This document shows positions 13,089 to 64,000 of a DNA stretch of 64,000 nt, piece after piece. The position numbers and the translations under genes were made by a program. Position 1 is the first letter of the stretch; the number at the start of each line of letters is the position of its first letter. The notes beneath the pieces are model-generated. The model did not search any database. It was not told the origin of the DNA and saw only the letters and a list, made by a program, of their open reading frames with translations. Source of the stretch: Opitutaceae bacterium EW11 (GTDB lineage Bacteria > Verrucomicrobiota > Verrucomicrobiia > Opitutales > Opitutaceae); the NCBI GenBank assembly GCA_003054665.1, contig QAYY01000010.1:1-64000 (forward strand), given 5' to 3'.

Positions 13089-14591
13089 ATGCAAACCGAC
13101 GTGTCGAGAAAACCATCCGAGGGCGTACGCGAGACGGCGCTCTTTCTTCTGATCCTCGCAGCAGGTGCCGTCCTCTACACGTATCGGCTGTCATGGAGCG
13201 ACATCTGGATCGATGAGTCCTGCTCGAAGGCTCTGGCCAGGCACTCGCTGGCCGATCTGATCAGGCTGATCGCCCACGATTCGCACCCGCCGCTCTATTT
13301 CATCGGACTCAAGGGCTTCATGAGCGTGGTCGGCTATAGTGATCTCACTCTTCGCCTGTTCTCCGTCGTCGGAGCCCTCGGCACGTTGATTCTCGGCTAC
13401 GTCATGGGCCAACGTGTGTTCGGGCGCAGGGGCGCGTTGGTTTTGACGGCCGTGCTCCTCGCTCTGCCCATGCCCGCGCTCTACGCGCACGTTGCCCGAA
13501 TGTACACGTGGTCGGCCTGCCTGGTCTTGGGTGTGTTCCTGACCGCCGTGCAGGTCGGGCGAGACAGCAGAAGAATGGACATCGTCTGGCTCGGACTCTT
13601 CAGCGTTCTTGCCGCCTACACGCACTATTACGCGCTGATCGCTGCGTTCTGGATCAACTTCTGCCTGCTCCTGTATCTGGTGGTCCAAAGAAACCCGAGA
13701 TGGCGTGCGGTGGTTCTGATGGGGCTGATCGTGTTCGTCCTGTATCTCCCGTGGGCTTTTGTTCTTGGTTCCCAGTCGGCGACGGTCCGTAAGGATTTCT
13801 GGATACCGCCCGTTTCGTGGCAGTCGGTCGCGGAATGCTACACCCGGCCTTTCGGCGGATTCTACTCACTGAACGCACTTTCGTGGGTGCCGATCGTGGC
13901 GATCTACGGGCTTACGGTGGCCTGCATCGTTGTCGTCCTCGCGACGCCCAAGTCGGAAGACCGCTTGCCCGTACTGCTGGCTCTCGTCGGATTCCATGCG
14001 ACGCTGCTGAGCGCCACCGTGATCTCGCTCAGTGTGCGGCCGATTTTGTATCCGCGCTACATCATGACCATCGCGCCGCTGCTCGCCGTACCGCCAGCCG
14101 TCTTGTTGACCCGATGTCGCTCCGTGTGGATTCGCGGCGGGGTTCTTGCCGTGTTGATCGGCTGCGGCGTGCCGATCGTCTTCTCCGAGACAAAGTTCTC
14201 CTACGGGCCCTACCAACAAGCCCTGCGTTCGTTGGCGCAGCGCCATCCGGAAGTGGTGAAAATCCTGCATATAAACGAACTGACGACCGGGCCCTTTTCC
14301 GAGTACGCAAGCGGGACCCGCTGGAAGAACTATTACTTGAAGAACGATCGTGCCTCCTGGTACTCGAACATGGAGATGTTCGACGGCGCCACTCCCGTGC
14401 GGGATCTCGCCGCGATGACGGAGGAACGAGAGGTGTTCTGCCTCGTGGAGTTCTCCGGGTTTTGGCTGAATCGCCCGAACATCGACCTCGTCCTTTCACA
14501 GTGCGATTTGATCGCGGTCGAGAATGCTGCCGACGAAAAACCTTATCCCGGGATCGTTCTCAAACTGTACCTCCTGAGAGCCCGAAAGTAG
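13089..14591 (+). CDS. GT39/ArnT-like polytopic glycosyltransferase
   Basis: This is a 500-residue integral membrane protein. The first helix is at ~16-32, followed by the periplasmic acidic motif IDESCSK (Asp42-Glu43) and HPPLY (~66-70), the layout of PMT/GT39-type lipid-linked sugar transferases. About ten further hydrophobic helices follow to residue ~375, then a soluble ~125-residue C-terminal part. The start at 13089 was chosen because it has a good ribosome binding site and the longer frame adds non-membrane sequence. The donor is expected to be polyprenyl-phosphate sugar; the acceptor is unknown. It stands alone, with the convergent permease gene downstream. Confidence 0.8.
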   Translation: MQTDVSRKPSEGVRETALFLLILAAGAVLYTYRLSWSDIWIDESCSKALARHSLADLIRLIAHDSHPPLYFIGLKGFMSVVGYSDLTLRLFSVVGALGTLILGYVMGQRVFGRRGALVLTAVLLALPMPALYAHVARMYTWSACLVLGVFLTAVQVGRDSRRMDIVWLGLFSVLAAYTHYYALIAAFWINFCLLLYLVVQRNPRWRAVVLMGLIVFVLYLPWAFVLGSQSATVRKDFWIPPVSWQSVAECYTRPFGGFYSLNALSWVPIVAIYGLTVACIVVVLATPKSEDRLPVLLALVGFHATLLSATVISLSVRPILYPRYIMTIAPLLAVPPAVLLTRCRSVWIRGGVLAVLIGCGVPIVFSETKFSYGPYQQALRSLAQRHPEVVKILHINELTTGPFSEYASGTRWKNYYLKNDRASWYSNMEMFDGATPVRDLAAMTEEREVFCLVEFSGFWLNRPNIDLVLSQCDLIAVENAADEKPYPGIVLKLYLLRARK

Positions 14592-14707
14592 GAGGAGGCC
14601 TACTCCCCCACCCTCCACCCACGGTCCGCGAAGTGGCGCTCCCGTCTTCGTGTAACACTCCACCCACTACGCGCTAGCCAGACGGGAGCGTTCCGAATCC
14701 CTCAGAG

Positions 14708-17113: not shown

Positions 17114-17810
17114 GGCCTGCCACTGCGGGCGCCATCGCGAGGGAACGTGGCGCAGTCGGCTTCGGGGGATGGTTTTCGGGGACCGTTGCCAGAAGGCAGC
17201 GGAGAACGTGTGGAGTTTGAGCAGTTCGCATTCCAATCGCGAGCCAGGCGAAAACCCAGTGGGGACGAGCGACTTCGACGGATCGCGAGTGGCGCCGCCT
17301 CTCCGGGCCATCTCGGAAACGGAACCGGGAGTCTCGGAATCGGGATGAAACGCCTCTGACAAAACCCAGCCTCGCTCGCTCGTGGCCGGGAGCCAGACGG
17401 CTCCCATCCATGCGCCAGAAACCAGCGCGGCGCAGGGGCTCCGGCGGGCAGTGCGCGCGGTGTCCTTCATCGTGCACGCGAACCTGTCGCCCACCGGTGT
17501 TGTTGATCCCGGCAGGTGCTCGGCGACGCCGAGTCCTCCATCCTGCCGATGATCTCGGTCAGCGGGTGTATCCATTTTCCCCATCGCGACGAGGACAACC
17601 GCAAAGGGGATCGCCAAGAGGTTGGCTCCTCAACGCCAACCATCGTGTGCCGGAGTCCTTTCGGCGCTCGGCGGTTTGTATGCCCAGAGTCATAGTGGAC
17701 GCTAGGACCTCTGTCCCATTGCCCGGGCGGGGCGAACGTCTCGTGATCGAGTCGGCTGTCTGCCCGTCGTTCGCGATCCCATTCGCCCGCAGCGGCCGCT
17801 CCCCCAGGCC
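17114..17810. promoter_or_regulatory. Divergent region between permease and LacI regulator
   Basis: Nearly 700 bp separate the two divergent starts. The permease frame stays open for 504 bases of it, but the translation lacks any family feature. Promoters for both genes, and possibly operators for the LacI protein, should lie here. I found no clear palindromic operator by eye. Confidence 0.35.
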
Positions 17811-19055
17811 ATGTGCTCCGCCCCCGCGTATCCCACTCCGCGTTCCGCGTCATCCATTGTCCAACCCGTGCCCGCTCCGCCCGGCGAGGATTCTGCCACC
17901 CCTCCGGGCGGTCCTCCTCTGCGACGGGTGACACAGAGCGACATCGCTCGCGCGGCGGGAGTTCACAACACCACGGTCTCGCTGGCGCTTCGCGACCGCG
18001 CGTGCATCCCGGAGGCGACGCGGCGCAAGATTCAGACGATCGCGCGGCGGATGGGCTACACGCCCGATCCCGCGCTCCAGGCGCTCGTCGCTTATCGGAA
18101 AAGCGTGGTCGGCGCCGGCGCTCATTCGACGATCGCGTTCGTGACCGACACGACCGGCGCGGACTGCCCGGGTGAACTGCAGGCGCGGGAACTCTGCCTG
18201 CTCGGGGCCCGGGACGCGGCAGTGAAACTTGGATACACGCTCGAGCACTTCTGGCTCGAAACGCATGAGATCGCCGAGGGACGTCTCGGGCAGCTCCTGG
18301 CCGGGCGCGGCATCCACGCAGCCCTGCTCGCCTGGCATCGGGGTGGAACATCCCGGCCGCTCGACTTCGATTGCCGTGAGCTTTGCGCGGTGCGCGTCGG
18401 CAATGCCGGTTGGAATCCGTCGCTCCACTCCGTGGTCAACGACGTCGGAGCCAACGTGCGCCTCGGTTTCCGGCACGCGCGACAGGCGGGTTATCGTCGC
18501 ATCGGCCTGGTGTTGCCCTCCGGCTGGGACGAGGCGTCGGACGGCGTTTGGTCGCTCGCGTTCGCCGTCGAACAGGCACGACTGCCGCAGCAGGACCAGA
18601 TTCCGCCCCTCACGCTATCGGGCGATGCTTCGAACCATGCTTCTGACAGCCACGGTTCTCCTCCGGAGAGCCGCGCCGAAGCTCTGGATCGGTGGCTGGA
18701 CGCTTGTCGACCGGAGGTCATCCTCGCCTCGAAGCCCCACGTGTCCGCAGCTCTCTCACGCCTCGGTCGGCGCATTCCGGACGACCTTGCGCTGATCGAA
18801 CTCCAGAACGAGAAGCCCGACGCAACTCTCGCGGGCGTTCGCCAGAACTACGTATCTGTCGGCGCACTCAGCGTGGAAACCGTCGTCCGGCTTCTTCAGC
18901 AGAACCAACGCGGACTGCCGTCCGTGCCCACGGTCACGCTCGTCCAGGGCACCTGGTGCGACGGCGCCTCGTTGCCGTTCCTGGCCAACGGAGGCCGCCA
19001 AGTCAGCGAGACGATGGCGAACGGGACCTTGAAGCTCGCAACCACGGCAGCCTGA
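17811..19055 (+). CDS. LacI-family transcriptional regulator
   Basis: This is a 414-residue protein. After a ~36-residue Pro-rich leader comes the LacI helix-turn-helix (VTQSDIARAAGVHNTTVSLA) and hinge (RRMGYTPDPALQAL). A periplasmic-binding-protein-like effector domain runs to residue ~390, with typical segments such as YRRIGLVLPSGWD and PDDLALIEL. In Verrucomicrobia such regulators control sugar or polysaccharide genes. The carbohydrate enzymes at 28.7-33.9 kb and the sensor kinase immediately downstream are plausible associates, but no operator links them. The leader may be over-annotated; no later Met precedes the DNA-binding domain. Confidence 0.9.
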   Translation: MCSAPAYPTPRSASSIVQPVPAPPGEDSATPPGGPPLRRVTQSDIARAAGVHNTTVSLALRDRACIPEATRRKIQTIARRMGYTPDPALQALVAYRKSVVGAGAHSTIAFVTDTTGADCPGELQARELCLLGARDAAVKLGYTLEHFWLETHEIAEGRLGQLLAGRGIHAALLAWHRGGTSRPLDFDCRELCAVRVGNAGWNPSLHSVVNDVGANVRLGFRHARQAGYRRIGLVLPSGWDEASDGVWSLAFAVEQARLPQQDQIPPLTLSGDASNHASDSHGSPPESRAEALDRWLDACRPEVILASKPHVSAALSRLGRRIPDDLALIELQNEKPDATLAGVRQNYVSVGALSVETVVRLLQQNQRGLPSVPTVTLVQGTWCDGASLPFLANGGRQVSETMANGTLKLATTAA

Positions 19056-50869: not shown

Positions 50870-51223
50870 ATGAAAACCCTCCGTCTCCTCCCCCTGGCCG
50901 TGCTCCCGCTCTCGCTTGCGGCCGTTTGTTTCTCCGCCTGCTCGAAGTCCCGTTCTCCGGCCTCGTCCGAGGCCACGGCTCCCGCGGAAAAAGCGGCGGC
51001 TGCCCGGCATCCGCTGAAGGGCGTCATCGTCGACGTGCTGCCGGACCGCTCCGCGCTCAAGGTGAAGCACGAGGCGATCCCGGGCTACATGGTCGCCATG
51101 ACCATGGCGTTCAAAGTGGACGCCGCGACCCTGAAGGCCGCCGCCAAGGGACAGGCGATCACGGCCACCCTCGTCGAACGCGACGACGGACTCTGGCTCG
51201 AGGACGTGCAGCCCGTCCGCTGA
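50870..51223 (+). CDS. CusF-like copper-binding lipoprotein
   Basis: This is a 117-residue protein with a signal sequence and lipobox-like VCFSAC. The CusF-type domain (~47-117) has HPLKGVIVDVLPDRSALKVKHEAIPGYM split over two strands, then VAMTMAFKVD, with the Met and His residues of the copper site (His71, Met80 region, MTM). CusF-like proteins carry Cu(I) in the periplasm. The next gene, for a cytochrome c, starts 7 bp later, so the two are probably co-transcribed; a cytochrome oxidase copper-delivery role is inferred. Confidence 0.82.
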   Translation: MKTLRLLPLAVLPLSLAAVCFSACSKSRSPASSEATAPAEKAAAARHPLKGVIVDVLPDRSALKVKHEAIPGYMVAMTMAFKVDAATLKAAAKGQAITATLVERDDGLWLEDVQPVR

Positions 51224-51230
51224 TTTTCCC

Positions 51231-51734
51231 ATGTCTACGTCACGACTGCTGGCCATCAGCCTTCTCTCAGCGTTCGGTCTGCTCACCGGATGCTCCAAAT
51301 CTGCCGAAAGCCCGCGGGCTTCGGCTGCGCCCAGCGCGCCCACGGCCGACCTTGCCAACGGCAAGGCGGTGTTCGAACGGGTGTGCGCCGCGTGCCACCA
51401 ACCGACGGGCCTCGGACTCCCGGGGACATTTCCTCCGCTCGCCGGATCGGAGATTCTCACGCGCGGAGACGGCAGCACCGTCGTGCGCATCGTCCTGCAC
51501 GGACTTCAGGGCCCGATCACCGTCGGCGGCAACACGTTCAACAGCGTCATGCCGCCACAGGGCCCGATGCTGAAGGACAACGAAATCTCCGACGCCATCA
51601 GTTACGCCCGCAGTTCCTGGGGCAATCGCGCCTCCGCCGTATCCGAAGCGACGGTACGCACGCTCCGCGCCACGGTGAAACGCGACGGGATGTGGACCTG
51701 GCCCGAACTCGACAAGGAGACCGGCGGAAAATGA
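51231..51734 (+). CDS. Cytochrome c (monohaem) lipoprotein
   Basis: This is a 167-residue protein with lipobox AFGLLTGC. A cytochrome c domain starts near residue 40 (ANGKAVFERVCAACHQPTG), with the haem motif CAACH and the sixth ligand Met in SVMPPQGPMLKD. Family members are membrane-bound electron carriers. It follows the copper protein by 7 bp, so it may serve a copper-containing terminal oxidase or nitrous-oxide/methyl reductase chain. Confidence 0.9.
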   Translation: MSTSRLLAISLLSAFGLLTGCSKSAESPRASAAPSAPTADLANGKAVFERVCAACHQPTGLGLPGTFPPLAGSEILTRGDGSTVVRIVLHGLQGPITVGGNTFNSVMPPQGPMLKDNEISDAISYARSSWGNRASAVSEATVRTLRATVKRDGMWTWPELDKETGGK

Positions 51735-51938: not shown

Positions 51939-54044
51939 CTACGTCAGCGACGGCTCGGGTGTTTTCCGTTTTCTGGATTTCGTCTTCGGGACCGGCGGCC
52001 GCACATCGTCCTGACGGGAGGAACTCGTTTCCCCCGCCGCACTCGCGACGGAGCCATAGCGCCTATCCAGGGGAAACGGCCGCACCCGATGCCGCAGGGC
52101 CAGGCGCGCCTTCCACCAGCCGGCGTAGTCGCGCATCGCGAGGGCTTCGTTTTCGTCCGTCTTGGCCTGCGCTCCGACCTCGAGGTACACCTCCAGATTG
52201 GCGAGATCGGGCTGAGGCAGCGTGCCTTCTTCGCAGCGCCGCCACATCTGCCGATACCGTTCTTCGAGTTCGCGGACCAACCGCGGCATGTCGAAGAGCG
52301 TGCACGTCTCGCGCTGGCTGCGCAGTTTGTCGCGCACGGGGAGGAGCGCAGCCCGGTCCTGGCCGAAGGCGATCGCCCGATCCACGTATTCCTTGGCCGA
52401 CAGGCAGACCATTTCGGGAAGCCCGGCGGAGCGCACCAGGCTTCCGCAGACCCGCGAGGCGAACGATCTGCCGGAGAGCGTGAGCACCGGCAGCCCCATC
52501 CAAAGCGCGTCCGACGCGGTCGTGTGGGCGCCGTACGGCGATGTGTCCAGGAAGAGATCCGCCAGCGTGTAACGGCAGAGGTGATACGGGTTGGCCAGCT
52601 TGTCCGCGAACACGAGCCGCTCCGCCGCGACGCCCTGCCGGACGGCGTGGGCGCGCAGCCGCTCGTTCGTCTGCCCGGTGCTGCCGAGGAGCCAGAGCAC
52701 GCTGCCCGGAACGGCTTTGAGGATCGTCATCCACCGGTCGAACGCGAAACGGTGGATCTTGTGCGCGCCGTTGAAGCAGCAATAGACCATCGCGTTCTCC
52801 GGCAGGCCGCAGTCGCGGCGCGCGAGCGGCCGCGGCGACACCGCGCGCTTCCGGTTGTTCGGCTGGTAGCACGGCAACCGCATCACCTCCTCCGAGTAAA
52901 AGATCTCGTACCCCGGCGGCACAATCCACTCGTCCGCCAGGAGAAAATGATGGTACGGACTGGCCATCGTTCCGGGGAAGCCGAGCCAGTTCACGATCAC
53001 CGGCGCGGGCCGCAGGGCCACGAGCTTCAACCGCGCCTCGCGGGTGTAGCCGTTGAGATCGACCAGTATCTGGATGCCGTCGTCGACCATGCGTTTCGCC
53101 ACCGTGGCGTCGTCGAGCTCCGTGATCGAGAGCCAGTGGTCGGCCGAGTTGCGGAAACCGGTGTGCAGCGGATCCTTCGCCGCCGGGCCGCAATAGTAGA
53201 CGAAAACCTCGACCTTGCTCCGGTCGTGCAGGCCGAAAACCTCGGCCATGAGATAGCCGACGGCGTGCTCGCGCAGGTCGGACGAGAGATAGCCGATCCG
53301 CAGTCGCCCGCCGTTTCCGCGAGCGCGCGGCCAGGCGAAAAACGGATTCGGCGGACTGCCGACGTCGAGCCGGTTGTACTGCGCGGCAAGCGCGAGGTGC
53401 AGCATCGGGTCGTCGGTTTGCGCGGCGATCGACAGCGGCGACATGCCCTGCATCAGCGTTTCATGGTTCACCCGCTCCCACGGTTCGACGATGGGCCATT
53501 TGCACTGGCGCTGTCGCAGTGCGACGTAGTGCTGCGCCACTTCGCGCTGATGCGGATCCAACTCCAGGCTCTGCTTGAGCATCGCTTCGGCCACTTCGTC
53601 CTGATTCGCCGCCTCCAGCGTCCGTGCGCTCTGGTTCAACGCCGTCGTCTTGTACGTGATCGCGTTTCCCGTCACCGGCGCGAGTTTTGCCAGGGCCGTC
53701 GACCACTGCACCACGGCCAGGTTCGGGCTTCCCTGCCGCTCGTAAACCCGGCCGAGATTGATGTGCGCCGGCATGAATTCCGGATTCAGCTTCAGCGCGC
53801 GTTCCAGGCATTCGCGCGCCGCGGCGAGTTTGCCCGAGTCCGTCAAGACCACGGCATGGTTGAACAGCACCGCGTAAAGGAGCGGATGATCGTGGTTGTG
53901 CTCGATCCACTTGCCGTACAGCACCTCCACCGAGCCGGGTTGGCCGCTCTGCTTCAGCGTCTCGGCCGTGCGGATGAGGTCGGTCACGCTGAGGGAACGC
54001 GCCATCGACTGGATCAAGGCGGAAGCGAGGAGTTCGGAGGGCAT
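51939..54044 (-). CDS. GT41 (OGT/SPINDLY-type) O-linked glycosyltransferase with TPR N-terminus
   Basis: This is a 701-residue protein. TPR-like helical repeats cover residues ~15-180. The GT41 catalytic region (~245-600) has GYLSSDLREHAVGYL (His260 at the position of the OGT base), VYCCFNGAHKIH (Lys429, UDP-sugar phosphate contact) and SPYGAHTTASDALWMGLPV (His507-Thr508-Thr509), then SFASRVCGSL. The last ~40 residues are basic and disordered (KTKSRKRKT). No signal peptide is present, so it is cytoplasmic. It is 82 bp downstream of the giant Ser/Thr-rich repeat gene on the same strand, which marks that protein as the natural candidate substrate. Members transfer GlcNAc or another UDP/GDP sugar to Ser/Thr; the sugar is not determined here. 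Confidence 0.92.
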   Translation of the reverse strand: MPSELLASALIQSMARSLSVTDLIRTAETLKQSGQPGSVEVLYGKWIEHNHDHPLLYAVLFNHAVVLTDSGKLAAARECLERALKLNPEFMPAHINLGRVYERQGSPNLAVVQWSTALAKLAPVTGNAITYKTTALNQSARTLEAANQDEVAEAMLKQSLELDPHQREVAQHYVALRQRQCKWPIVEPWERVNHETLMQGMSPLSIAAQTDDPMLHLALAAQYNRLDVGSPPNPFFAWPRARGNGGRLRIGYLSSDLREHAVGYLMAEVFGLHDRSKVEVFVYYCGPAAKDPLHTGFRNSADHWLSITELDDATVAKRMVDDGIQILVDLNGYTREARLKLVALRPAPVIVNWLGFPGTMASPYHHFLLADEWIVPPGYEIFYSEEVMRLPCYQPNNRKRAVSPRPLARRDCGLPENAMVYCCFNGAHKIHRFAFDRWMTILKAVPGSVLWLLGSTGQTNERLRAHAVRQGVAAERLVFADKLANPYHLCRYTLADLFLDTSPYGAHTTASDALWMGLPVLTLSGRSFASRVCGSLVRSAGLPEMVCLSAKEYVDRAIAFGQDRAALLPVRDKLRSQRETCTLFDMPRLVRELEERYRQMWRRCEEGTLPQPDLANLEVYLEVGAQAKTDENEALAMRDYAGWWKARLALRHRVRPFPLDRRYGSVASAAGETSSSRQDDVRPPVPKTKSRKRKTPEPSLT

Positions 54045-54126: not shown

Positions 54127-57100
54127 TCAGGCCATGGCCTCGTTGAGCGCCGCGATCTGCGCCGGCGTCAGGCTGGCGAGCTGGGTGGACGTAAACGCGC
54201 TCGCCTGCGTCGGTTTCAACGACTCGAGTTCCGTCGTCGTGAGCGCGGCCAGCGCGGTGGTCGACAGCGCGCCGATCGTCGTCGTGGTGATCTCGCTGAG
54301 CTGCGTCGGCGTGAGGGAACCGAGCTGGGCGGCGGTGAGCGATCCCAGCTGCGTTGCGGAAAGAGCGGCAATCTGCGACGCGCCGAGCACCCCGAATTGC
54401 GTGGCCGGCATGTGCGCGAGCTGCGTGCCGGTGAGGCTCGAAACCTGGGTGGCGGTGAGCCAGCCCACCTGCGTCGTCGACCAGGCGTCCAATTGCCCGA
54501 GCGAGAGCGAACGCAGCTGCATCCGCGAAAGTCCGCCGATCTGAGCGGACGACAACGCCGCGACCTGCGTGGTGGCAAGATCCTCGATCTGCGAGGGCGA
54601 AAGGGCGTTGACCTCCGTCGCGGTCAGCCCCGCGAGTTGAGTGAGGGTCATGGCCCGCAACTCCGTCTCGGTCAGTCCCTGCACGCCCGTGGCGGACAGC
54701 AGGCCCAGCTGCGTTGGCGTGAGCACCGCAAACTGCGCCGGAGTCAGCGCGCCGACCTGGGCCGCGGTCAGGCCGCGGAACTCCGTCGAGGTGAGGAGCG
54801 AAATCTGCGCGGTGGTCAGCGAAGCGATCTGGGAGGTGGAAAGACCCGCGATGCCGGAAGCGGAGAGGCTGACGAACTGGGTCGTGCTCAGGGCGGAGAA
54901 CTGAGTCGGCGTCAGCCCGGCTACCGCGCTGGAGGAAAGCGCCGACATCTGCGTGCTGCCGAGAGCGCGCAGCTGGCTCGTCGACAGGGATGCGACCTGC
55001 GCCGCCGTCAGGCCCGAGGCGCCCGCGGCCGACAACGCGGCGAGCTGGGTCGCGCTCAGGGCCGAGAGTTGCGCCGTCGTCAGCGCCCCCACCCCGGTGG
55101 AAAGCAATCCTCCGATTTCGGTCGTCGTGAGGCAGGACAGCTGGGTCGCGGTCAACCAGCCGAGCTGGGCGGTGGTGAGCGCACCCATCTGCGTCGAGGA
55201 GAGCGCCGAAAGCTGACGCGTCGTCAGAGCGGCCATCTCGGCCGAGGTCAGGCCGGCGACGCCGGTGACGGAGAAGCCGGAGAGCTGCGTCGCGGTCAGT
55301 TTCGCGAGTTGGGCCGTGGAGAAGGATGCGACCTGGTCCGCGCGCAAACCGCCGAGCGCCGCGGCGCTGAGGCCGGCCAGCTGCGTCGTCGTCAGCGCAC
55401 CGATTTCGGTCGTCGTGAGTGCCTGGATACCCGTGCTCGTCAAGCCATGCAGCTGCGTGCTCGAGAGCGCCGCAAGCTGCGCCGTGGTGAGAGCCTGCAC
55501 CTGCGCCGCGGTCAACCCGCCCACCTGCGTCGAGGCCAGCGCGGCGAACTGGGTCGTCGGCAGCGACGCCAGCTGAGTCGCGCTCAAGCCGGCGATGGCC
55601 GAGGTCGACAGCGCGGCAAACTGCGCCGCGGTCAGGGCCGACAACTGCGCGGTGGAGAAACCGGCGACCTGCGTCGAGGTGAGTCCCCGGATCTCCGTGG
55701 TCGTCAGCACCCCGAGCTGGGCCGGCGAGAAGGCGTCGAGTTGCGCGTCCGTCAGGCTGCCAAACTGCGCGGGAGTCAGCGCCGCCAGCTGCCGCGTGCT
55801 GAGCGCCGCGATCTCCGCCGGCGTCAGGCCGCTGATCGCCGTGGTGCTCAACGCGGCGATGAACGTGGTGCTCAGCGCGTTCAGCTGGGTCGGACTCATC
55901 GCCCCGATCTGTTCCGCGGTGAGTCCGGCGATTCCCGTCGCAACCAGCGCCGCAAACTGGGTGGTCGCGAGCGCCTGGATTTGCGCCGTGGTTAGGGCGC
56001 CCACGCCGGTGCTCGAGAGCCCCCGGAGCTGCGTGCTCGAGAGCAAAGCGACCTGCGCCGCCGAGAGGTCCGACACCTGGGTTGCCGTGAGGGCCGTCAT
56101 TTCCGTCGCGGTCAGGGCCTTGAACTGCGCCGTCGACAGGGCGCCGAGCTGCGTGGCGGTCAGGCTCGAAATCGCCACCGACGAAAACGCGGCGATCTGC
56201 GTCGGAGTGAAGGCGCCGAGCTGCGTGGAAGTGAGCGCCGATGCCTGCGTATCCTGCAGGCCGGCCAGCTCCGTGGCGGTCAACAAGCCGAGCTGCGTCG
56301 TGCTCAACGCCTGGAGTTGCTCCGTGGCGAGCGCTCCGAATTGCGCCGAGGTCAGGGCCGCCAGCTGGCGGTTCGAAAGTCCGGCCAGCTGCGTCTCGGT
56401 CAGGCCGGCGATCCCGGTCGTGCTGAGGCTCGCAATCTGCGCGGTGCTCAGCGCCGACAACTGCGCGGCGGTGAGGGCGCCGACGGCGGTGGTCTCCAGC
56501 GCCGCCAGCTCCGTGGCCGTGAGCGCGCCTAGTTGCGCGGAACTCAAGGCGCCCACCTGGGCGACACTCAGAGCGGCCACCTGGGTTGCGGAGAGGCTTC
56601 GGATCTGCGTCGTGCCGAAAGCGGCGATCTGCCCGGGCGAGAGGGCTTCGAACTGCTCGAGGCTCAGGCTCCCGATCTGCGCGGGAGTCAGCGCGGCGAT
56701 TTGCGTCGATGCGAGGGCGGCAATGCGCGTGGTCGAGAAGCCGGCGATGCCGACCACCGACAGTCCGGCGAGCTGGGTGGTGGAAAGCGCCGCCAGCTGC
56801 GTGTCCGCGAGCGCCTCGACCTGCGTCTCCGTCATCCCGCCGATCTGCGTCGCGGAGAGAGCGGCAAGCTGCGCAGCGGTGAGCGAGCCGATCTGCGTCT
56901 CCGTCAAGCGTCCGAGCTGCGTGTACGTGATCCCGGCCAGCTGCGTCGTGGTCAGCGCGGCGATATCAGGCGCGCTGAGTCCGCCGATCGCGTCCGACGA
57001 AAGTGCGGCGAGCTGCTTGGCGGAAAGAACACCGACCTGGCCGGTGCTCAACGCCCCCAGTTGCGTATCCACCAAGCTCGCCAACTGCCCGCCGGTGAGG

Positions 57101-60100
57101 GCCGCCAGCTGTGTCGTCGAGAGTGACGAGATTCCCGTCTCGTCGAGGCCGTCGAGCGCCGTGGTGGAAAGCGCCGCGATCTGTTTGCCCGAGAGCGCGG
57201 CCAGCTGGCCCTGGGTGAACTTCGAAAGCTGCGCGTCGGAGAACCCGCCGATCTCCGTGGTGGTCAGGGCCGATATCTGCGTCGAGGTCAGCGCGGCGAC
57301 CTGCTCGGCGGCAAGCGAGCCGATCTGCGCGGCGGTCAACGAAGCGATCTGCCGGGTGGAAAACGCGGCCAGCCGCTGCGGCGTCAGGCCCGCGAGGGCG
57401 TCGGCGGAAAGCGCCGCCAGCTGAGTGCTCGAAAGCACGCCCAGCTGCGTAGTCGCAAGCGACGCCACCTGGGCGGAGCTGAGTCCGTTGATCTCGGTCG
57501 AGGTCAGCGAACCGAACTGGGTCCCGCTGAGCGCGGAAAGCTGCGACGCGGAGAGTTCGCCAATCTGGCTGGCGGTGAAGCCGCGAAGCTGGGTCGTGGT
57601 CATCCCGGCGAGCTGCGCGCCGGTGAGCCCCGCCAGCTGACTCGCGCTCAGCCCTCGGAGCGACGTGGCGCTCAGGGCGCGAGTCTGGGTCGAGGAGAGA
57701 GCGGCCAGCATGGTGGGCGAAAAACCGGCGATGGCCGTGGCCGAAAGGGCCGCCAGCTGCGTGGCTGAGAGGGCGGCGACTTGCGCGGCGGAGAGCGCGG
57801 AAAGCTGCGTATCCACCATTCCACTCACCTCCGCGGAGGTGAGCACGGAGAGCTGCGCGGCGCTGAGAGCGGCCACCTGCGACGTCGAAAGCGCCCCGAA
57901 TTGCGAGGCGGTGAACGCCGCCAGCTGCGTGGTCGACAACGCGGCCATCTCGGCCGCCGTGAGGCCGCCGAGCGCCGAGGTTGAAAGCGACACCAGCTGC
58001 GTTTTGTTCAGCACTCCGAGCTGCGCCGCGGACAGCGCGGAAACGTCCTCCGCCGAGAGTCCCGCGAGCTGGCGCGCGGTGAGCGCCGCCACCTGACGGG
58101 TCGAAAGCCCGGAAATCTGCGTGCTCGAGAGCGCATCGATCTGCGTGCCGGTGAAGCCCTGAACCTGGCTCGAACTCAACGCCGCCAGCTGGGCAGGGCT
58201 GAGGATACCGAGCGCGGCGGCGGGCAGCGCGCCCAACTGCGTCGGCGTGAGCGCGGCAAACTGCGTCGGAAGCAACCCGGCGAGCTGCGTCTCGGTGAGG
58301 CTGCCGAGGCTGGAAGATGCAAGCGAAGCGAGTTGGGTGTTGCTCAGGGCAGCGAGCTGCGCCGGGGAGAGTCCGCCGATCGCGGTGCCGGAGAGGCCTT
58401 TCAGTTGTGTCGACGTCAGGCTGCTCATCTGCGCCGTCGAAAGCAGCGCCAGCTGGGCGGCCGAGAGGCCGGCGAGTTCGGCCGGCGTCAGCGCGCGCAA
58501 CTGCGTACTCGTCAGCGAAGAAATCTGCGTCTCGGTCAGGCCGCCGACGGCCGTGCTGGACAGCGCCGCCCACTGCGTCGTCGTCAGGGCGGCAAACTGG
58601 CTCGGCGAGAGCCCGGCGAGCGCCGTGCCGGTGAGGCCCTTGAGCTGCGTCGGCCCGAGCGCCGCCAGTTGGGTCGAATTCAAAACCGCCCATTGCGTGT
58701 CGGCCAACGCTCCGACCGCTCCGCTCGATAGTCCTTTGATCTGGGTGGAGCTGAGCGCCGCCAGCTGCGTCGTGGACATTCCCGCGATGGCATCGGTGGT
58801 GAGCGCGGCCAGCTGCGTCGACGTCAGCGCGGCAAGCGAGGTCACCGTCAGTTCGCCGAGATCGGTGCTCGTCAGCCCGGCCAGCTGCGCGCCTGTGAGC
58901 GCCGCCAGCTGCCGCGTTCCGAGGCTGGCGATCTGCGTCGCCGAGAGTTCGCTCACCGCCGCGGCGCTGAGGGCACGGAGCTGCGTCGTGCCGAGACTGC
59001 CGAGTTGGGTGACTCCGAGTCCCGCCACGACCGTGGCGGAGAGCGCACCGAGCTGCGTCGCCGCCAGGCCCTTCAGCTGGGTCGTGGTGAGCGAGCCGAG
59101 TTGCGTGGCATTCAGACTGGCGACGGCGGCGCTCGAGAGTGAACCGATCTGAGTCGAGGAAAGCGCCGCGAGTTGGTCGGTCGTGAGCTGGGCGAGTTCG
59201 GTCCCGGTGAGACCGCGAAGCTGCGTGGCGGTAAACGTCGAGAGCTGGGTCGTCGTCAGAGCCGCGAGCTGGGTGTCGCTGAACGCACCGATCGCCGCGC
59301 TGCTCAGCCCGCGAAGCTGGGTGCTCGTGAGACCGGCGAGTTGCGTTGTCGTCAGGCCAAGGAGTCCCGCCGCAGTGAGTCCGGAGAGTTGCGTCGAAGT
59401 CAGGGCCGCCAGCTGCGCCGCGGTGAGTTCGCTGGCATCGGTGCTCGTGAGCCCTCCGATCTGCGCGACGGAAAACGCTTTCAACTGCGTTTCGGACAAC
59501 GCGGCCAGCTGCGTCGAGGTCAGCGCGCTGACCGCCGCGGAGCTGAGTCCGCGAAGCTGGGTGCTCGTCAGGGAGGCCAGCTGCGCGGAGCCAAGCGCAC
59601 TGACGAACGTCGCCGAAAGCGCCCCCATTTCGGTGCTGGTGAGACCGCGAAGCTGGGTCGTGGTCAACGCCGCCAGCTGCGTCTCGCTCATTCCCTGGAT
59701 CTGGGCGACCGAGAGCGCCGCCAGCTGCGTGCCGGTGAGAGCGGCCAGCTGGGTCGTAGTGAGAGCGTTGACGGCCGTGGCGGAAAGACCGCGAAGCTGC
59801 GCGGCGGAGAGAGCGGCGAGCTGCGGGCCGGAAAGCACGGCGAGTTGCGTATCCGCGAGAGCGGAAATCCCGGCGCTGGTGAGTCCTTTCAGCTGCGTCG
59901 TCGTGAGTGCCGAAACCTGCTCGGACGAAAGCGTCCCAATCTGAGCCGCGGTGAGCGCCCCCAATTGAGTCGAGGTGAGGCTCCCCAGCTGCGTGGACGT
60001 GAATGCATTGAACTGCTCTTCCGTGAACCCTTTCACCGCAGCCGGCGAAAGCGCCGCCAGTTGCGTCTTCGAGAGGGCGGACAGCTGCGCGACGCTCAGT

Positions 60101-61608
60101 CCAGCGATGCCGGTGGCGCTCAAGCCGGCCAGTTGCGTGGCGCTCAGGACGGAAAGCTCGGTGGTGGTCAACGCCCCCGCCGCCGTTGCGGACAGCGCCG
60201 CCAGCTCCGTGGCGGTGAGCGCCTTCACCTGCGCCGTGGACAGGCTCGCAATCTGGTCTTCGCTCAGCGCCCGAATCTGGACCGCGGAAAGCGCGGCGAT
60301 CTGCGCGGTGGTCAGGGCGGCCAGCTGCGAGGAGCTGAAGTTGGACAGCGCCGAAGCGGTCAGCCCGCGCACCTGGGTGCTGTTGAGCGAGGCGAGCTGG
60401 GCGGTCGAGAGCGACGCGAGCTGGGCGTCGCTCAGCGCGGAAACCTCCGTCGCCGTGAAACCTTTGAGCTGCGTCGTGGTGAGGGAGCTCACTTGCGCAG
60501 GGGAAAGGTATCCGATCTGCCCGACCGTCAGGGCGCCGAGCTGGGTCGACGTGAGCGTGCCGAGCTGGGTGACGGTGAGCGAGGCAAGCTGCTCCTCGGT
60601 CAGGCCCTTCACCGCAGCCACTGGAAGCGCCTTCAGTTGCGCGGTCGAAAGAGCCGCAAGTTGGGTGGCGCTCAATTCCGAAAGGCCCGTGCTGGTGAAG
60701 CTGGCGAGCTGGGTGGTGGTCAACGCGGCGAGCGCGGTGCCGGTCAGCGCTCCGATCGCGGTCGACGTCAAGGAGCCCAGCTCCCCGCCCGTGAGTGTCT
60801 TCAGCTGACTCGTGCTCAGTCCGGCGAGCTGGGTTTCGCTCAGGCCCTTCAACTGGGCCGCGGTGAGCGCCTCGAACTGCGTCGTGGTCAACGCGCCGAG
60901 TTGCGTCTCCGTCAGGAGCGAGACTTCCGTGCTGGTCAGCCCCCTGATCTGAGTCGCGGTCAACGCGGCGAGTTGGGAGGTGGAAAGCGTGGCAAGCTGC
61001 GTCTCCGCGAAGGCGGCGATCTGGGCGGCGCCGAAACCCTTCACCTGCGTCGTGCTGAGAGCGGCCAACCGGTCGGTCGAAAGCTGCCCGATCTGAGCCG
61101 GGCTCAGCATCCCGAGCTGGCTGGAGCCGAGCGCGGCCCATTGCGCCGGCGTGAGCGCATCCATCTGGTCGGCGGTGAGGCCGCGAATCTGGTTCGTCTG
61201 CAGCGACGCGATCTGCGTCGGGGTGAGCGAGGCGACCTGGGTGGTCGTCAGTTCGCCGATGTCGGAACTCGAGAGGCCGCGCAGCTGGGTCGTCGTCAGG
61301 CTGGCGATTTCGCTGGTGGTAAACGTTTCCATCTGCGCGCCGCTCAGCATCGAGAGCTGGCTCGCGCTGAAGACCACGATCTCCGTCGCCGACAGCGCCT
61401 CCACCTGGGTCGTATCCAAAGCTTCGATCTGCGTCCGCGTGAGCGCGGCGAGCTCGGTCTTGGTCAGGGCCGCGATCTGCGTGGTGGTCAGCGAGGCGAT
61501 TTCGGAGGCAAGAAGGGACGAGAACTCCTTCGCGGTCAGGCTCCGCAGGGCCGTGGTCGAAAGGTCCGAGACCGATTGGGTGGTGGAGGAAAAGATGGAC
61601 GAGATCAC
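54127..61608 (-). CDS. Giant octapeptide-repeat protein
   Basis: The protein is 2493 residues from a GTG at 61608. Residues 1-2488 fall into 311 octads without any break in register, followed by NEAMA. The consensus is [ST]-x-[TAS]-Q-[ILV]-x-[AG]-[LF], with examples TTTQIAAL, STTQLAAL and TPAQIAAL. Ser/Thr at position 1 and Gln/Glu at position 4 form a helix-capping-like pattern (Pro is common at 2), with hydrophobic residues at 5 and 8. Octads lacking Gln recur every 3-4 octads. There is no signal peptide, membrane helix, Cys pair or catalytic motif, and only one Cys was noticed. Ser and Thr make up roughly a quarter or more of the residues. It is probably a solenoid or fibrous structural/surface protein. 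Export route and start codon are uncertain. Confidence 0.9.
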   Translation of the reverse strand: MISSIFSSTTQSVSDLSTTALRSLTAKEFSSLLASEIASLTTTQIAALTKTELAALTRTQIEALDTTQVEALSATEIVVFSASQLSMLSGAQMETFTTSEIASLTTTQLRGLSSSDIGELTTTQVASLTPTQIASLQTNQIRGLTADQMDALTPAQWAALGSSQLGMLSPAQIGQLSTDRLAALSTTQVKGFGAAQIAAFAETQLATLSTSQLAALTATQIRGLTSTEVSLLTETQLGALTTTQFEALTAAQLKGLSETQLAGLSTSQLKTLTGGELGSLTSTAIGALTGTALAALTTTQLASFTSTGLSELSATQLAALSTAQLKALPVAAVKGLTEEQLASLTVTQLGTLTSTQLGALTVGQIGYLSPAQVSSLTTTQLKGFTATEVSALSDAQLASLSTAQLASLNSTQVRGLTASALSNFSSSQLAALTTAQIAALSAVQIRALSEDQIASLSTAQVKALTATELAALSATAAGALTTTELSVLSATQLAGLSATGIAGLSVAQLSALSKTQLAALSPAAVKGFTEEQFNAFTSTQLGSLTSTQLGALTAAQIGTLSSEQVSALTTTQLKGLTSAGISALADTQLAVLSGPQLAALSAAQLRGLSATAVNALTTTQLAALTGTQLAALSVAQIQGMSETQLAALTTTQLRGLTSTEMGALSATFVSALGSAQLASLTSTQLRGLSSAAVSALTSTQLAALSETQLKAFSVAQIGGLTSTDASELTAAQLAALTSTQLSGLTAAGLLGLTTTQLAGLTSTQLRGLSSAAIGAFSDTQLAALTTTQLSTFTATQLRGLTGTELAQLTTDQLAALSSTQIGSLSSAAVASLNATQLGSLTTTQLKGLAATQLGALSATVVAGLGVTQLGSLGTTQLRALSAAAVSELSATQIASLGTRQLAALTGAQLAGLTSTDLGELTVTSLAALTSTQLAALTTDAIAGMSTTQLAALSSTQIKGLSSGAVGALADTQWAVLNSTQLAALGPTQLKGLTGTALAGLSPSQFAALTTTQWAALSSTAVGGLTETQISSLTSTQLRALTPAELAGLSAAQLALLSTAQMSSLTSTQLKGLSGTAIGGLSPAQLAALSNTQLASLASSSLGSLTETQLAGLLPTQFAALTPTQLGALPAAALGILSPAQLAALSSSQVQGFTGTQIDALSSTQISGLSTRQVAALTARQLAGLSAEDVSALSAAQLGVLNKTQLVSLSTSALGGLTAAEMAALSTTQLAAFTASQFGALSTSQVAALSAAQLSVLTSAEVSGMVDTQLSALSAAQVAALSATQLAALSATAIAGFSPTMLAALSSTQTRALSATSLRGLSASQLAGLTGAQLAGMTTTQLRGFTASQIGELSASQLSALSGTQFGSLTSTEINGLSSAQVASLATTQLGVLSSTQLAALSADALAGLTPQRLAAFSTRQIASLTAAQIGSLAAEQVAALTSTQISALTTTEIGGFSDAQLSKFTQGQLAALSGKQIAALSTTALDGLDETGISSLSTTQLAALTGGQLASLVDTQLGALSTGQVGVLSAKQLAALSSDAIGGLSAPDIAALTTTQLAGITYTQLGRLTETQIGSLTAAQLAALSATQIGGMTETQVEALADTQLAALSTTQLAGLSVVGIAGFSTTRIAALASTQIAALTPAQIGSLSLEQFEALSPGQIAAFGTTQIRSLSATQVAALSVAQVGALSSAQLGALTATELAALETTAVGALTAAQLSALSTAQIASLSTTGIAGLTETQLAGLSNRQLAALTSAQFGALATEQLQALSTTQLGLLTATELAGLQDTQASALTSTQLGAFTPTQIAAFSSVAISSLTATQLGALSTAQFKALTATEMTALTATQVSDLSAAQVALLSSTQLRGLSSTGVGALTTAQIQALATTQFAALVATGIAGLTAEQIGAMSPTQLNALSTTFIAALSTTAISGLTPAEIAALSTRQLAALTPAQFGSLTDAQLDAFSPAQLGVLTTTEIRGLTSTQVAGFSTAQLSALTAAQFAALSTSAIAGLSATQLASLPTTQFAALASTQVGGLTAAQVQALTTAQLAALSSTQLHGLTSTGIQALTTTEIGALTTTQLAGLSAAALGGLRADQVASFSTAQLAKLTATQLSGFSVTGVAGLTSAEMAALTTRQLSALSSTQMGALTTAQLGWLTATQLSCLTTTEIGGLLSTGVGALTTAQLSALSATQLAALSAAGASGLTAAQVASLSTSQLRALGSTQMSALSSSAVAGLTPTQFSALSTTQFVSLSASGIAGLSTSQIASLTTAQISLLTSTEFRGLTAAQVGALTPAQFAVLTPTQLGLLSATGVQGLTETELRAMTLTQLAGLTATEVNALSPSQIEDLATTQVAALSSAQIGGLSRMQLRSLSLGQLDAWSTTQVGWLTATQVSSLTGTQLAHMPATQFGVLGASQIAALSATQLGSLTAAQLGSLTPTQLSEITTTTIGALSTTALAALTTTELESLKPTQASAFTSTQLASLTPAQIAALNEAMA
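54127..61608 (-). repeat. 24-bp/8-residue tandem repeat array
   Basis: About 310 copies of a 24-bp unit encode the octads of the giant protein. Codon choice varies between copies and no long identical block was seen, so the array is old or actively diversified at synonymous sites while the octad register is kept. Long ORFs on the opposite strand here are by-products of the periodicity. Confidence 0.9.
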
Positions 61609-62284
61609 CGCGGGAAGGGATTGACCGGCTCGGAGACACGCGCGGCGTCCGGCTTACCCTGGCGACGTGGTTTGGCTGATACACGCCGCCACCCTTCGGC
61701 TGGACGCGGGGGCACCTTGCTCGGGGAAACAGGCGTGACCGTGCTTCCGCTCCCCCGTCGGTCAACCGAATTGGGATGAGCCCGGCTTTGTCGTGGACGA
61801 ATCCCTACAAACGCATTTTGGGCGTTCAGCGACGCGGGATCCACCGTTGCCGCGGCAGGGTCCCGGTCCCGAGCGAAGCGCCGGACTCCCTCCCCCAGTT
61901 CAAGCCTACCGCCGGTGTGTGTCTGTAGTCTACGGGGTGATACTGCGGAGAATCAGCGTTTCTACTGATTGCGCTGGGGCACGCCCGCCGAACCGTGAAA
62001 GCCGGTTGCATCGACGCCGCCAGCCGCTGGCTTTACGGCCGCCCGGATGGCTCCAAACGCACCGGTCTGGCGCCAAAACACGGTAAACGCATTCAGTCTG
62101 CGGCAGCCAGCCGCCGGCCTGGCGAACGCGTCCGGAAACACTGGTCAAGTATATGTAATATATACGTGTCTGCTCATATATCGACTTGAGCAATTTCCCG
62201 CGCTCCGTTCCCCTCCGCACATCCAGCCTCGCTCGTTCTCTCCCTGCTTTCTTCAACGCAGACACCCCCCTCGGAGACCAAACT
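61609..62284. promoter_or_regulatory. Divergent region between the repeat protein and the multihaem cytochrome
   Basis: This is a 676-bp gene-free region. Short frames cross it, but none is convincing. It should hold the promoters of both flanking genes. A striking AT-rich patch with an imperfect inverted repeat is at 62146-62188. Confidence 0.45.
62146..62188. promoter_or_regulatory. AT-rich imperfect inverted repeat, possible operator or promoter
   Basis: CAAGTATATG at 62146-62155 and CATATATCGACTTG at 62175-62188 are related as an imperfect inverted repeat (CAAGT...ACTTG outer, ATATG...CATAT inner) around an AT-rich centre. It lies about 100 bp upstream of the cytochrome ATG in otherwise GC-rich DNA, so it could be a regulator-binding site or promoter element. 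Confidence 0.4.
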
Positions 62285-64000
62285 ATGAAATCTCGCGTGA
62301 GTTGGACCGTCGCCGCCCTGCTATCAGCGTCCGGCACCCTCTTTGCCGGCGGCGGCAAGCCCACTCTGCTGGGCTGGAACAACCTCGGCATGCACTGCAT
62401 GGACGACGACTACGACGTCTTCTCCATCCTGCCGCCCTACAACACCGTCAACGCGCAGTTCCTCGACGCGTCGGGGCATCTGCTGAAGTCGGGCTCCGGC
62501 GTCACGCTCACCTATGAGGCGGTCGCGGATCCGGACGGATCGATCAACACCACCTCGGTCGGGAAAACGAATTTCTGGGTCGACGCCACCGACCTCTTCG
62601 GCCCCGGCGCTCCGACTGCCGACAAGGGTCTCGCCGGCTTCGCCATGCCCGGCAAATCGAACGTCCCGCAGAAAATGGCCTGGACCGCCACGGCCCAGAA
62701 CTGGTTCGAGGCGACGGGCATTCCGATCACGCCGACCGACGACGCCGGCCGCCGCAATTCGTATCCGATGATGCGGCTGAAGGCCCGCAACACCCAGGGC
62801 ACGGTGCTCGCCCAGGTCGACGTCGTTCTCCCGGTTTCGGACGAAATGGACTGCCGCGCTTGTCACGCGTCCGGCAGCGGACCCGCCGCGATGCCCGCCG
62901 GTGGATGGGAGTACGACTCCAACTCCAAACACGATTTCCGTTTCAACATTCTCAGGCTGCACGACGAGAAAAACGCCGGATCGGCGCTCTACCAAACCGC
63001 GCTGCAGACCGTGGGTTATTCGGCGTCTGGCCTGTACGCCACCGCGAAGGGCGGCATGTCCATCCTGTGCGCAGAGTGCCATTCCTCCGAAGCGCTCCCC
63101 GGCAGCGGCGTCGCCGGTGTTCCCCCGCTCACCCGGGCCGTGCACGGCGTTCACGCCAGCGTGATCAGCCCTCGGAGCGGCCTCAGTCTCAACGCCACGG
63201 CCAATCGCTCTTCTTGTTACGAATGTCATCCGGGATCGACGACCCAGTGCCTCCGCGGCGCGATGGGAGCAGCCGTGGATCCGGCCAACGGACAGCTGGC
63301 GATGCAGTGCCAGAGCTGCCACGGCACGATGTCGCAGGTCGCCTCCACCTCTCGCACCGGCTGGCTCGACGAACCCAACTGCCAAGCGTGCCACACCGGC
63401 ACCGCCCGCCAGAACAGCGGCCAGATCCGTTTCACCAACGCACTGCTAGCCAACGGTACCGTCCGCGTCCCGCAGAACACGCGCTTCGCCACGACTCCGA
63501 ACACCCCCGCGCCCGGCAAGTCGCTCTACCGGTTCTCCGCCGGCCATGGCGGACTGCAATGCTCGGCGTGTCACGGATCGACCCACGCGGAATTCACGAG
63601 CAGCCACCGAAACGACAACATTTACTCTCAGGAACTGCAGGGGCACGTGGGCGTGCTGGCCGAGTGCACCGCCTGCCACGCGAAGCAGCCCACCACGGTG
63701 GCCGGCGGCCCGCACGGCATGCATCCGATCGGCAACGCCTGGATCGACAAACACGAGGACGCGGTGAACTCCGGTTGCCAGGACTGCCACGGGACCGACT
63801 GGCGCGGCACCGTTCTTAGCCAGGCAAAGGCCAACCGCACGTTCAGCGTCGAGGGCAAGACGGTCAAATTCTGGCGCGGCCAAAACGTCAGCTGTTACGA
63901 GTGCCACAACGGTCCGCGAGGCGAAGGCAACGCGCCCGCCGCGCCCAAGGTGCTCGCCTCCGTCACCCTCGCCGGCATCTCCGGGGTGAGTTCGATCAGC
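62285..64000 (+). CDS. Secreted multihaem cytochrome c, 3'-truncated by the window edge
   Basis: The ATG at 62285 begins a signal peptide (WTVAALLSASGTLFAGGG), and the frame stays open to the right edge (572 codons visible, no stop). After a ~180-residue N-terminal domain (GWNNLGMHCMDDDYDVFS; FWVDATDLFGPG) nine C-x-x-C-H motifs follow: CRACH, CAECH, CYECH, CQSCH, CQACH, CSACH, CTACH, CQDCH and CYECH. Additional His residues (HGVHAS, GGPHGMHP) could be distal ligands. The protein is expected in the periplasm or outside the cell as an electron conduit. It is divergent from the giant repeat gene. The C-terminus and total haem number are unknown. Confidence 0.85.
   Translation, partial: MKSRVSWTVAALLSASGTLFAGGGKPTLLGWNNLGMHCMDDDYDVFSILPPYNTVNAQFLDASGHLLKSGSGVTLTYEAVADPDGSINTTSVGKTNFWVDATDLFGPGAPTADKGLAGFAMPGKSNVPQKMAWTATAQNWFEATGIPITPTDDAGRRNSYPMMRLKARNTQGTVLAQVDVVLPVSDEMDCRACHASGSGPAAMPAGGWEYDSNSKHDFRFNILRLHDEKNAGSALYQTALQTVGYSASGLYATAKGGMSILCAECHSSEALPGSGVAGVPPLTRAVHGVHASVISPRSGLSLNATANRSSCYECHPGSTTQCLRGAMGAAVDPANGQLAMQCQSCHGTMSQVASTSRTGWLDEPNCQACHTGTARQNSGQIRFTNALLANGTVRVPQNTRFATTPNTPAPGKSLYRFSAGHGGLQCSACHGSTHAEFTSSHRNDNIYSQELQGHVGVLAECTACHAKQPTTVAGGPHGMHPIGNAWIDKHEDAVNSGCQDCHGTDWRGTVLSQAKANRTFSVEGKTVKFWRGQNVSCYECHNGPRGEGNAPAAPKVLASVTLAGISGVSSIS

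Follow-up and report, generated by a model that had tools for sequence, protein, structure and literature searches.

We analysed a 64,000-nucleotide stretch of the genome of Opitutaceae bacterium EW11 (positions 1 to 64,000 of contig QAYY01000010.1), here termed the window. On its minus strand lies a giant repeat gene that is followed by a gene for a GT41 (OGT-type) glycosyltransferase with an N-terminal TPR region (Table 1). The repeat ORF starts with a GTG at 61608 and stops at 54127. Because the N-terminus of the repeat protein aligns with the starts of its relatives, in a comparison made by eye, the GTG start is supported. A multihaem cytochrome c gene is located upstream of the repeat gene (62279-64000, plus strand), and a CusF-like protein and cytochrome c pair is encoded beyond the GT41 gene (50870-51734, plus strand); neither showed any sign of belonging to the repeat/GT41 pair.

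Table 1. Features of the repeat gene and its GT41 partner gene in the window.
Feature	Position	Strand	Remarks
Giant ALTTAQ-repeat protein, 2493 aa	54127..61608	-	311 octads in a single register, tail NEAMA
N-terminal 32 residues of repeat protein	61513..61608	-	Gap-free alignment by eye with the M-T-S-[IV]-x-S-L starts of relatives
Residues 1-300 of repeat protein	60709..61608	-	AlphaFold2 from single sequence, pLDDT 86.6, same mini-helix pattern
Residues 801-1040 of repeat protein	58489..59208	-	AlphaFold2, pLDDT 94.3, 30 helices in 30 octads
C-terminal tail NEAMA and stop codon of repeat gene	54127..54144	-	
TPR + GT41 (OGT-type) glycosyltransferase, 701 aa	51939..54044	-	82 nt downstream of repeat gene, same strand
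TPR region of GT41 protein	53541..53870	-	About residues 59-168
GT41 catalytic region	52275..53321	-	About residues 242-590

A preliminary description of this DNA had claimed 311 octads in one unbroken register over residues 1-2488, with units that diverge in sequence while the register holds, and both claims were confirmed. A script that tracked the register, and in which a change of phase was allowed but penalised, stayed in a single phase over residues 1-2493, that is, throughout the 311 octads and the tail (the C-terminus reads AALNEAMA), and 298 of the 311 octads are distinct. The strict consensus [ST]xxQ[ILV]xxL was matched by 140 octads and its relaxed form by 283, whereas positions 5 and 8 are both hydrophobic, with Ala and Trp counted in, in all octads except numbers 1 and 164 (309/311). 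Position 1 is Ser or Thr in 86% and position 4 is Gln in 70% of the octads; Pro occupies position 2 in 28 of the 311, and its earlier description as frequent was overstated. The Fourier and autocorrelation analyses that had been proposed as a check showed that the protein spectrum is dominated by the octad frequency and its harmonics (periods of 2.666, 4.002 and 7.99 aa at 594, 271 and 70 times the mean power) and that self-identity is 0.37 at lag 8 compared to 0.06-0.12 at lags of up to 39 other than multiples of 8. These data support a strict octad register that is kept under divergence. No signal peptide was recognized by eye, and no other credible Pfam match pointed to a further domain, the entire protein being array.

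The repeat ORF is a real coding frame, because its GC3 (GC1/2/3 of 0.617/0.581/0.866) matches that of four neighbouring genes (0.82-0.86) and because two overlapping long frames that were tested peak in GC at another codon position. These overlapping frames (59173-61779, plus strand, 868 aa; 56966-61765, minus strand, 1599 aa), in which the GC-rich codon position is the wrong one, are a by-product of the 24-nt repeat in high-GC DNA. The 24-nt periodicity of the array in the DNA and the several other open frames could be taken to mean that the array is itself a DNA repeat of selfish or low-complexity nature, or that its frame is spurious, with octads arising as a by-product. This reading is contradicted by the diversity of the octads, by the lack of any lag with near-identical runs in the window array, by the GC3 value, by a confident model folded from the single sequence, and by the mixture of synonymous codons at fixed residues (Leu at position 8 is encoded by CTC 109, CTG 92, CTT 36, TTG 32 and CTA 2 times), and we give it practically no credence.

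The preliminary description had also regarded the repeat as unlike any described fold and had named placement in a known family as the outcome that would speak against this view. A profile search identified such a family: the repeat protein matched the curated Pfam entry PF20080 (ALTTAQ_rpt) with 1016.4 bits against a cut-off of 26.4, in 92 stretches, whereas the remaining Pfam matches (CAAP1, LRR_EndoS, Sigma70_r4_2 and SAM_3) included no stretch that passed on its own. PF20080 describes the same repeat, but its model spans 38 positions, which corresponds neither to the octad nor to a turn of 3.42 octads (see below). Furthermore, PDB chain 9zem, named 'HeliScrew4', matched the window profile by sequence with an E-value of 2.6e-27; it is 120 residues long and contains an octad of the same kind, a likeness that rests on sequence and name. 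The repeat is thus already deposited and, judging by the name and sequence of HeliScrew4, its fold probably is too, so the claim of a repeat unlike anything on file did not hold. In the open-access literature we found no paper that names HeliScrew or ALTTAQ or treats the ALTTAQ family, and the eight subfolds listed in a 2024 review of alpha-solenoids do not include this one (PMC11514114). The ALTTAQ fold therefore looks barely described in the open literature, and the window protein is a genuine member, of giant size, of a repeat family that has a name but little description. What is new here is a second register of 3.42 octads, the GT41 partner, and type I secretion genes that are added in some relatives; the first two had been missed in the earlier description.

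The series of octads is itself periodic. In a spectrum of power summed over 30 residue-by-position features, a peak of 222 was obtained at 3.425 octads, compared to at most 69 when the order of the octads was shuffled 200 times; taken separately, the thirds of the protein peaked at 3.42, 3.41 and 3.425 octads. Gln-4, Gly-7, Ala/Gly-4, Lys/Arg-6 and Asp/Glu-2 have distinct phases within this period. A peak at 3.37-3.455 octads was among the top four in each of the 20 arrays analysed and was the top peak in 16; it exceeded the maximum of 50 shuffles in 17, the exceptions being loci L090 and L091 and one frame of L096. This period is not accounted for by recent duplication, because the peak was above the shuffles in seven of the nine spectrally analysed loci that lack recent copies (the window, L032, L085, L087, L090, L091, L092, L097 and L098).

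The second register appears to be a screw of approximately 3.42 octads (27.4 residues) per turn, that is, 105 degrees per octad and approximately 91 turns, a twist derived from sequence and not from coordinates. In four arrays (the window, L087, L092 and L115) acidic residues at positions 2/3 and basic residues at position 6 lie approximately 160-190 degrees apart round this screw, whereas in L085 position 3 gives an angle of 68 degrees and position 2 one of 166 degrees. One of the charge classes is too sparsely represented in most of the 13 arrays analysed, and charge stripes along the screw are suggestive only.

To the structure prediction of octad segments that had likewise been proposed, AlphaFold2 returned a periodic helical fold and not disorder (Table 1). 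For residues 801-1040, where the input was an alignment with 11 further segments of the protein taken in phase, the model has helices of 4-6 residues, one in each octad, and no strand. For residues 1-300 the regular pattern begins at approximately residue 41, the initial 10 residues are poorly defined, and strands are again absent. One mini-helix per octad is predicted, with position 1 as N-cap, the helix at approximately positions 2-6, and hydrophobic residues at positions 5 and 8; the helix N-cap that had been suspected at position 1 agrees with the place of the helix in all 30 octads of residues 801-1040.

Leucine-rich repeats have one beta-strand per repeat. Chains of this class matched the repeat down to 3.3e-13, yet neither model contains a strand; we took these to be composition matches and rejected the assignment. 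Ice nucleation proteins have a Ser/Thr-rich periodicity of 8/16 residues and are thought to be beta-solenoids. This shared periodicity, together with the RefSeq label 'ICE nucleation protein' of the homologue in Cereibacter sphaeroides 2.4.1, might suggest an ice-nucleation or antifreeze-type repeat protein, but the all-helical, strand-free models differ from a beta-solenoid and none of the five Pfam matches is an ice nucleation family, which makes this explanation highly improbable. Homologues on Cereibacter sphaeroides plasmids (L095 and others) have been given the names 'ICE nucleation protein', 'heme utilization protein' or 'large exoprotein', which the predicted fold does not support.

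The best structural neighbour of the repeat model in Foldseek was mesothelin (E-value of 1e-4, TM 0.38). In VIA the best neighbour was a phage receptor-binding protein with Z 8.9, the rest having Z below 7, and 9zem was absent among the structural-neighbour matches listed. Armadillo, TPR and HEAT repeat units comprise approximately 30-42 residues and two or three helices. PPR units are given as 31-36 residues and PUF units as approximately 36 residues (PMC11514114). These alpha-solenoids likewise stack helices into a superhelix, but the unit of the window protein is 8 residues long and contains a single helix of 4-6 residues, and membership in the armadillo, TPR or HEAT subfolds was rejected. 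Many of the VIA neighbours are nevertheless armadillo-like (beta-catenin, importin-alpha and designed ARM proteins, Z 5-6). Such neighbours would suit an alpha-solenoid that carries no glycans and whose groove takes up peptides or proteins, as in armadillo or TPR proteins, with a GT41 link that reflects a common surface-glycan gene island. However, Z below approximately 13 may mean just a common arrangement in the case of helical repeats, and both mesothelin and the armadillo proteins are weak matches to distant superhelices, the scores of which may reflect no more than this arrangement.

Whereas the window array has no recent copies, near-identical internal copies were found in 13 of 26 loci. 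The commonest lag per locus was 17 octads in five loci, 24 in four, 44 in two, and 62 and 68 in one each, which correspond to approximately 5, 7, 13, 18 and 20 turns, respectively. The worst-fitting lag is 62, which is 0.13 turn off at a period of 3.42 and 0.29 turn off at 3.39. With the period fixed at 3.41, the mean cosine of the commonest lags was 0.91, a value reached in none of 20,000 random draws of lags between 5 and 79, although a lag that related bacteria have in common does not count as several independent events. In L084, L094, L096 and L111 the octads of separate frames were listed together, and the minor lags of 25 and 52 in L094, which are not whole turns, may stem from this joint listing. 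As judged from these lags, recent duplications in the relatives appear to be close to whole numbers of turns. The L094 array (Pseudoroseomonas, 13194-18314) extends over several overlapping frames, which suggests frameshifts or assembly errors in near-identical repeats.

Within the phylum of the window organism, PF20080 was found in this genome alone, both among 57 relatives (E-value of 1e-3) and among 288 genomes of the phylum (E-value of 1e-6). It was present in 6 of 337 genomes from the class of a Rhizobiaceae relative, the relative included (E-value of 1e-8). Among 14 named control genomes only Caulobacter vibrioides had PF20080; it is also one of the two with GT41. A rare-peptide scan of genome contigs yielded two loci. 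A Rickettsiales MAG encodes a protein of 1085 aa with weak, interrupted octad-like stretches (L033, 1519-4776; tblastn E-value of 1e-11). Locus L098 (NZ_CP084753.1, Roseateles sp. XES5, UNVERIFIED_ORG) largely has in common with L097 (Shinella zoogloeoides) the order ABC transporter, FAD oxidoreductase, cupin, repeat gene and GGDEF, and this sequence, labelled as betaproteobacterial, may be a mislabelled Shinella-like genome. We rejected a phage origin of the repeat, since one 240-aa segment had no tblastn match in 50,697 phage records at 1e-5 and the 50 matches listed among predicted viral structures had query TM-scores of at most 0.31.

A GT41 gene lies within approximately 4 kb of a repeat gene in five of the seven PF20080-positive genomes (G000, G331, G507, G535 and G603), in G535 between two repeat genes. 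G372 has GT41 genes elsewhere only and G473 has none, and several of the positive genomes also carry repeat genes without a nearby GT41 gene. Among plasmids, 54 records contain the repeat and 86 a relative of the window GT41 (E-value of 1e-20). Of the 60 of these 86 that were listed, 26 hold the repeat, with the best places within 12 kb of each other in 24 of the 26; among these pairs are 11 Cereibacter plasmids that resemble one another and two sister plasmids of Rhizobium. Because of these related plasmids, and because G507 and a contig of G372 have the same sizes as two plasmid records, the independent cases are fewer. In Rhizobium anhuiense T24 (L118, 16634-18735) the GT41 gene adjoining the repeat is split into two overlapping frames and is either broken or misassembled. 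A neighbouring enzyme is not always needed, because 20 of 36 array stretches scanned, two of which are both ends of one array, have no GT41 in view.

In a tree of 28 GT41 sequences, in which near-duplicate loci were entered once and the broken L118 sequence was left out, all 18 repeat-linked enzymes fell on one side of a branch (93/98) and the 10 unlinked ones, including a paralogue from the window genome itself, on the opposite side; none of 500 label shuffles scored as low. The linked enzymes form two sub-groups, and in three loci a member of each stands in tandem with the other. Ten linked GT41s from alphaproteobacteria share 44-52% identity with the window enzyme along most of the length of the latter. 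Within its own taxonomic family, matches came from 17 of the 41 genomes, paralogues included; their identity was 27-40%, and coverage was mostly partial. GC is 0.688 in the repeat gene, 0.660 in the GT41 gene and 0.656 in the remaining window. Because the window enzyme is nearer to the linked alphaproteobacterial enzymes than to those of its own family, and because the linked enzymes group together, the repeat and GT41 genes probably arrived jointly by horizontal transfer, at a time remote enough for their base composition to have come to match that of the surroundings. A screw period that is legible in the sequence and a co-travelling GT41 are features of the window protein and its relatives. 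That linked GT41s are one group following the repeat between lineages would not be expected of a generic glycan island. The groove-binding solenoid can draw on the stretches without GT41 in view and on other polysaccharide genes in some loci, but we consider it quite unlikely.

The window enzyme matched PF13844 with 267.5 bits against a cut-off of 25 and has TPR families near its N-terminus, and its nearest solved relatives are OGT enzymes. Aligned with OGT chains, it keeps the Lys of FNxxxKI and the His of the D-x-x-x-H and HTT motifs, residues with a catalytic role in OGT. Against NF049992, the model for HMW1C-type N-glycosyltransferases, it scored 21.4 bits compared to a cut-off of 1000.

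We think it fairly likely that the window encodes a giant screw-shaped alpha-solenoid that is O-glycosylated by its own GT41 enzyme to give a glycosylated fibre. Each octad would form a short mini-helix capped by the Ser/Thr at position 1, with positions 5 and 8 in the core, and successive mini-helices would wind into one uninterrupted rod. This rod would be the dedicated multi-site acceptor of the TPR-GT41 enzyme encoded immediately downstream, which, in the cytoplasm, would O-glycosylate Ser/Thr residues exposed close to the N-terminal ends of the mini-helices. The resulting long glycosylated fibre would then be exported in several proteobacterial relatives by a neighbouring type I secretion system. 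The window protein is, in this model, probably a sugar-coated fibre.

Gram-positive serine-rich repeat glycoproteins, which use accessory Sec export, are described as having Ser-rich repeats that are glycosylated intracellularly before export; to our knowledge, their repeats and enzymes are unrelated to the ALTTAQ/GT41 pair. HMW1C, like the window enzyme, belongs to GT41. The large surface adhesin HMW1 of Haemophilus influenzae is described as being modified by this dedicated enzyme (PMC2877744), but HMW1 is N-glycosylated and uses two-partner secretion, and the window enzyme falls below the cut-off for such N-glycosyltransferases. In Caulobacter crescentus, FlmG is reported to be a soluble protein with TPR and GT-B glycosyltransferase regions that acts on its flagellin substrate in the cytoplasm before export, its TPR domain binding the partner flagellins (PMC7591256). 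There the enzyme is likewise dedicated and carries TPRs, but the substrate is flagellin and the donor pseudaminic acid, whereas the window enzyme would modify the repeat protein. The window pair would work like FlmG-flagellin or HMW1C-HMW1, with a dedicated enzyme for one large protein, and would be a member of neither.

The binding of flagellins by the FlmG TPR domain (PMC7591256) makes contact between TPR and screw plausible, and the screw could instead be a scaffold or regulator on which the TPR region docks while other proteins are glycosylated. The linked GT41s are separate genes, two in tandem in three loci, and Ser/Thr at position 2 fails to separate linked from unlinked arrays cleanly, as a scaffold would allow. 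However, the partner is the substrate in both FlmG-flagellin (PMC7591256) and HMW1C-HMW1 (PMC2877744), the arrays consist of 20-38% Ser/Thr in 26 loci, and a scaffold of approximately 2500 residues would be costly. We therefore judge the scaffold unlikely, if less so than the groove binder.

For O-glycosylation of the array itself, Ser/Thr at position 2 is a candidate acceptor that the counts half support: it occupies at least approximately 60% of octads in 16 of 17 GT41-linked arrays, with 45% in the window itself, and at least 60% in 10 of 20 array stretches without GT41 in view. When the position-2 prediction was applied to 11 fresh stretches, one fresh linked array was high (L130, 0.87), and several unlinked ones were high too. 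Genes for UDP-galactopyranose mutase (glf) or UDP-glucuronate decarboxylase are found near linked GT41s in L109, L110 and L094 (the decarboxylase in L094). These nearby genes are possible sources of the donor sugar and hint that it may be something other than plain GlcNAc.

In six loci the repeat/GT41 pair is accompanied by type I secretion genes, namely in Pseudoroseomonas, Cereibacter, two Pseudomonas plasmids, and G507 and G603; in the last two, type I HlyD was the sole component looked for and was present. The type I-associated arrays L086, L088, L094 and L095 end in [AS]LF[LM], and in the two Pseudomonas proteins the C-terminus is another stretch, which is not made of repeats. No exporter genes were found among the neighbouring ORFs scanned in the window. 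In the window genome, the best matches to type I HlyD (TIGR01843) and the PrtD-type ABC transporter (TIGR01842) had 53 and 244.6 bits against cut-offs of 208.65 and 510.15, respectively, and a single weak Peptidase_C39 match had 25.2 bits against 22. Because neither type I HlyD nor a PrtD-type transporter exceeded its cut-off in this genome, a surface fibre is not supported in the window organism, whereas a surface location is supported for some relatives.

For the family as a whole, we tentatively put forward a wider reading, on which we would not yet rely, in which ALTTAQ proteins would be a mobile class of O-glycosylated helical-screw fibres. Their evolution would be quantised twice, by the 8-residue register and by whole-turn duplications (17 octads as 5 turns, 24 as 7, 27 as 8, 31 as 9, 44 as 13 and 61 as 18), and a dedicated GT41 clade would travel with them between lineages and decorate particular faces of the screw.

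If these readings are correct, the pair would represent a bacterial O-glycosylation system with an extremely repetitive and regular acceptor, which would be useful for the study of OGT-type enzymes. Eight residues would be close to the shortest possible unit of a helical solenoid, and the sequence itself would reveal the superhelical twist (approximately 105-106 degrees per octad) as well as evolution by whole turns, giving a direct test of structural constraint on repeat duplication. A role would also be suggested for family members that are currently labelled as hypothetical, 'ICE nucleation' or 'heme utilization' proteins.
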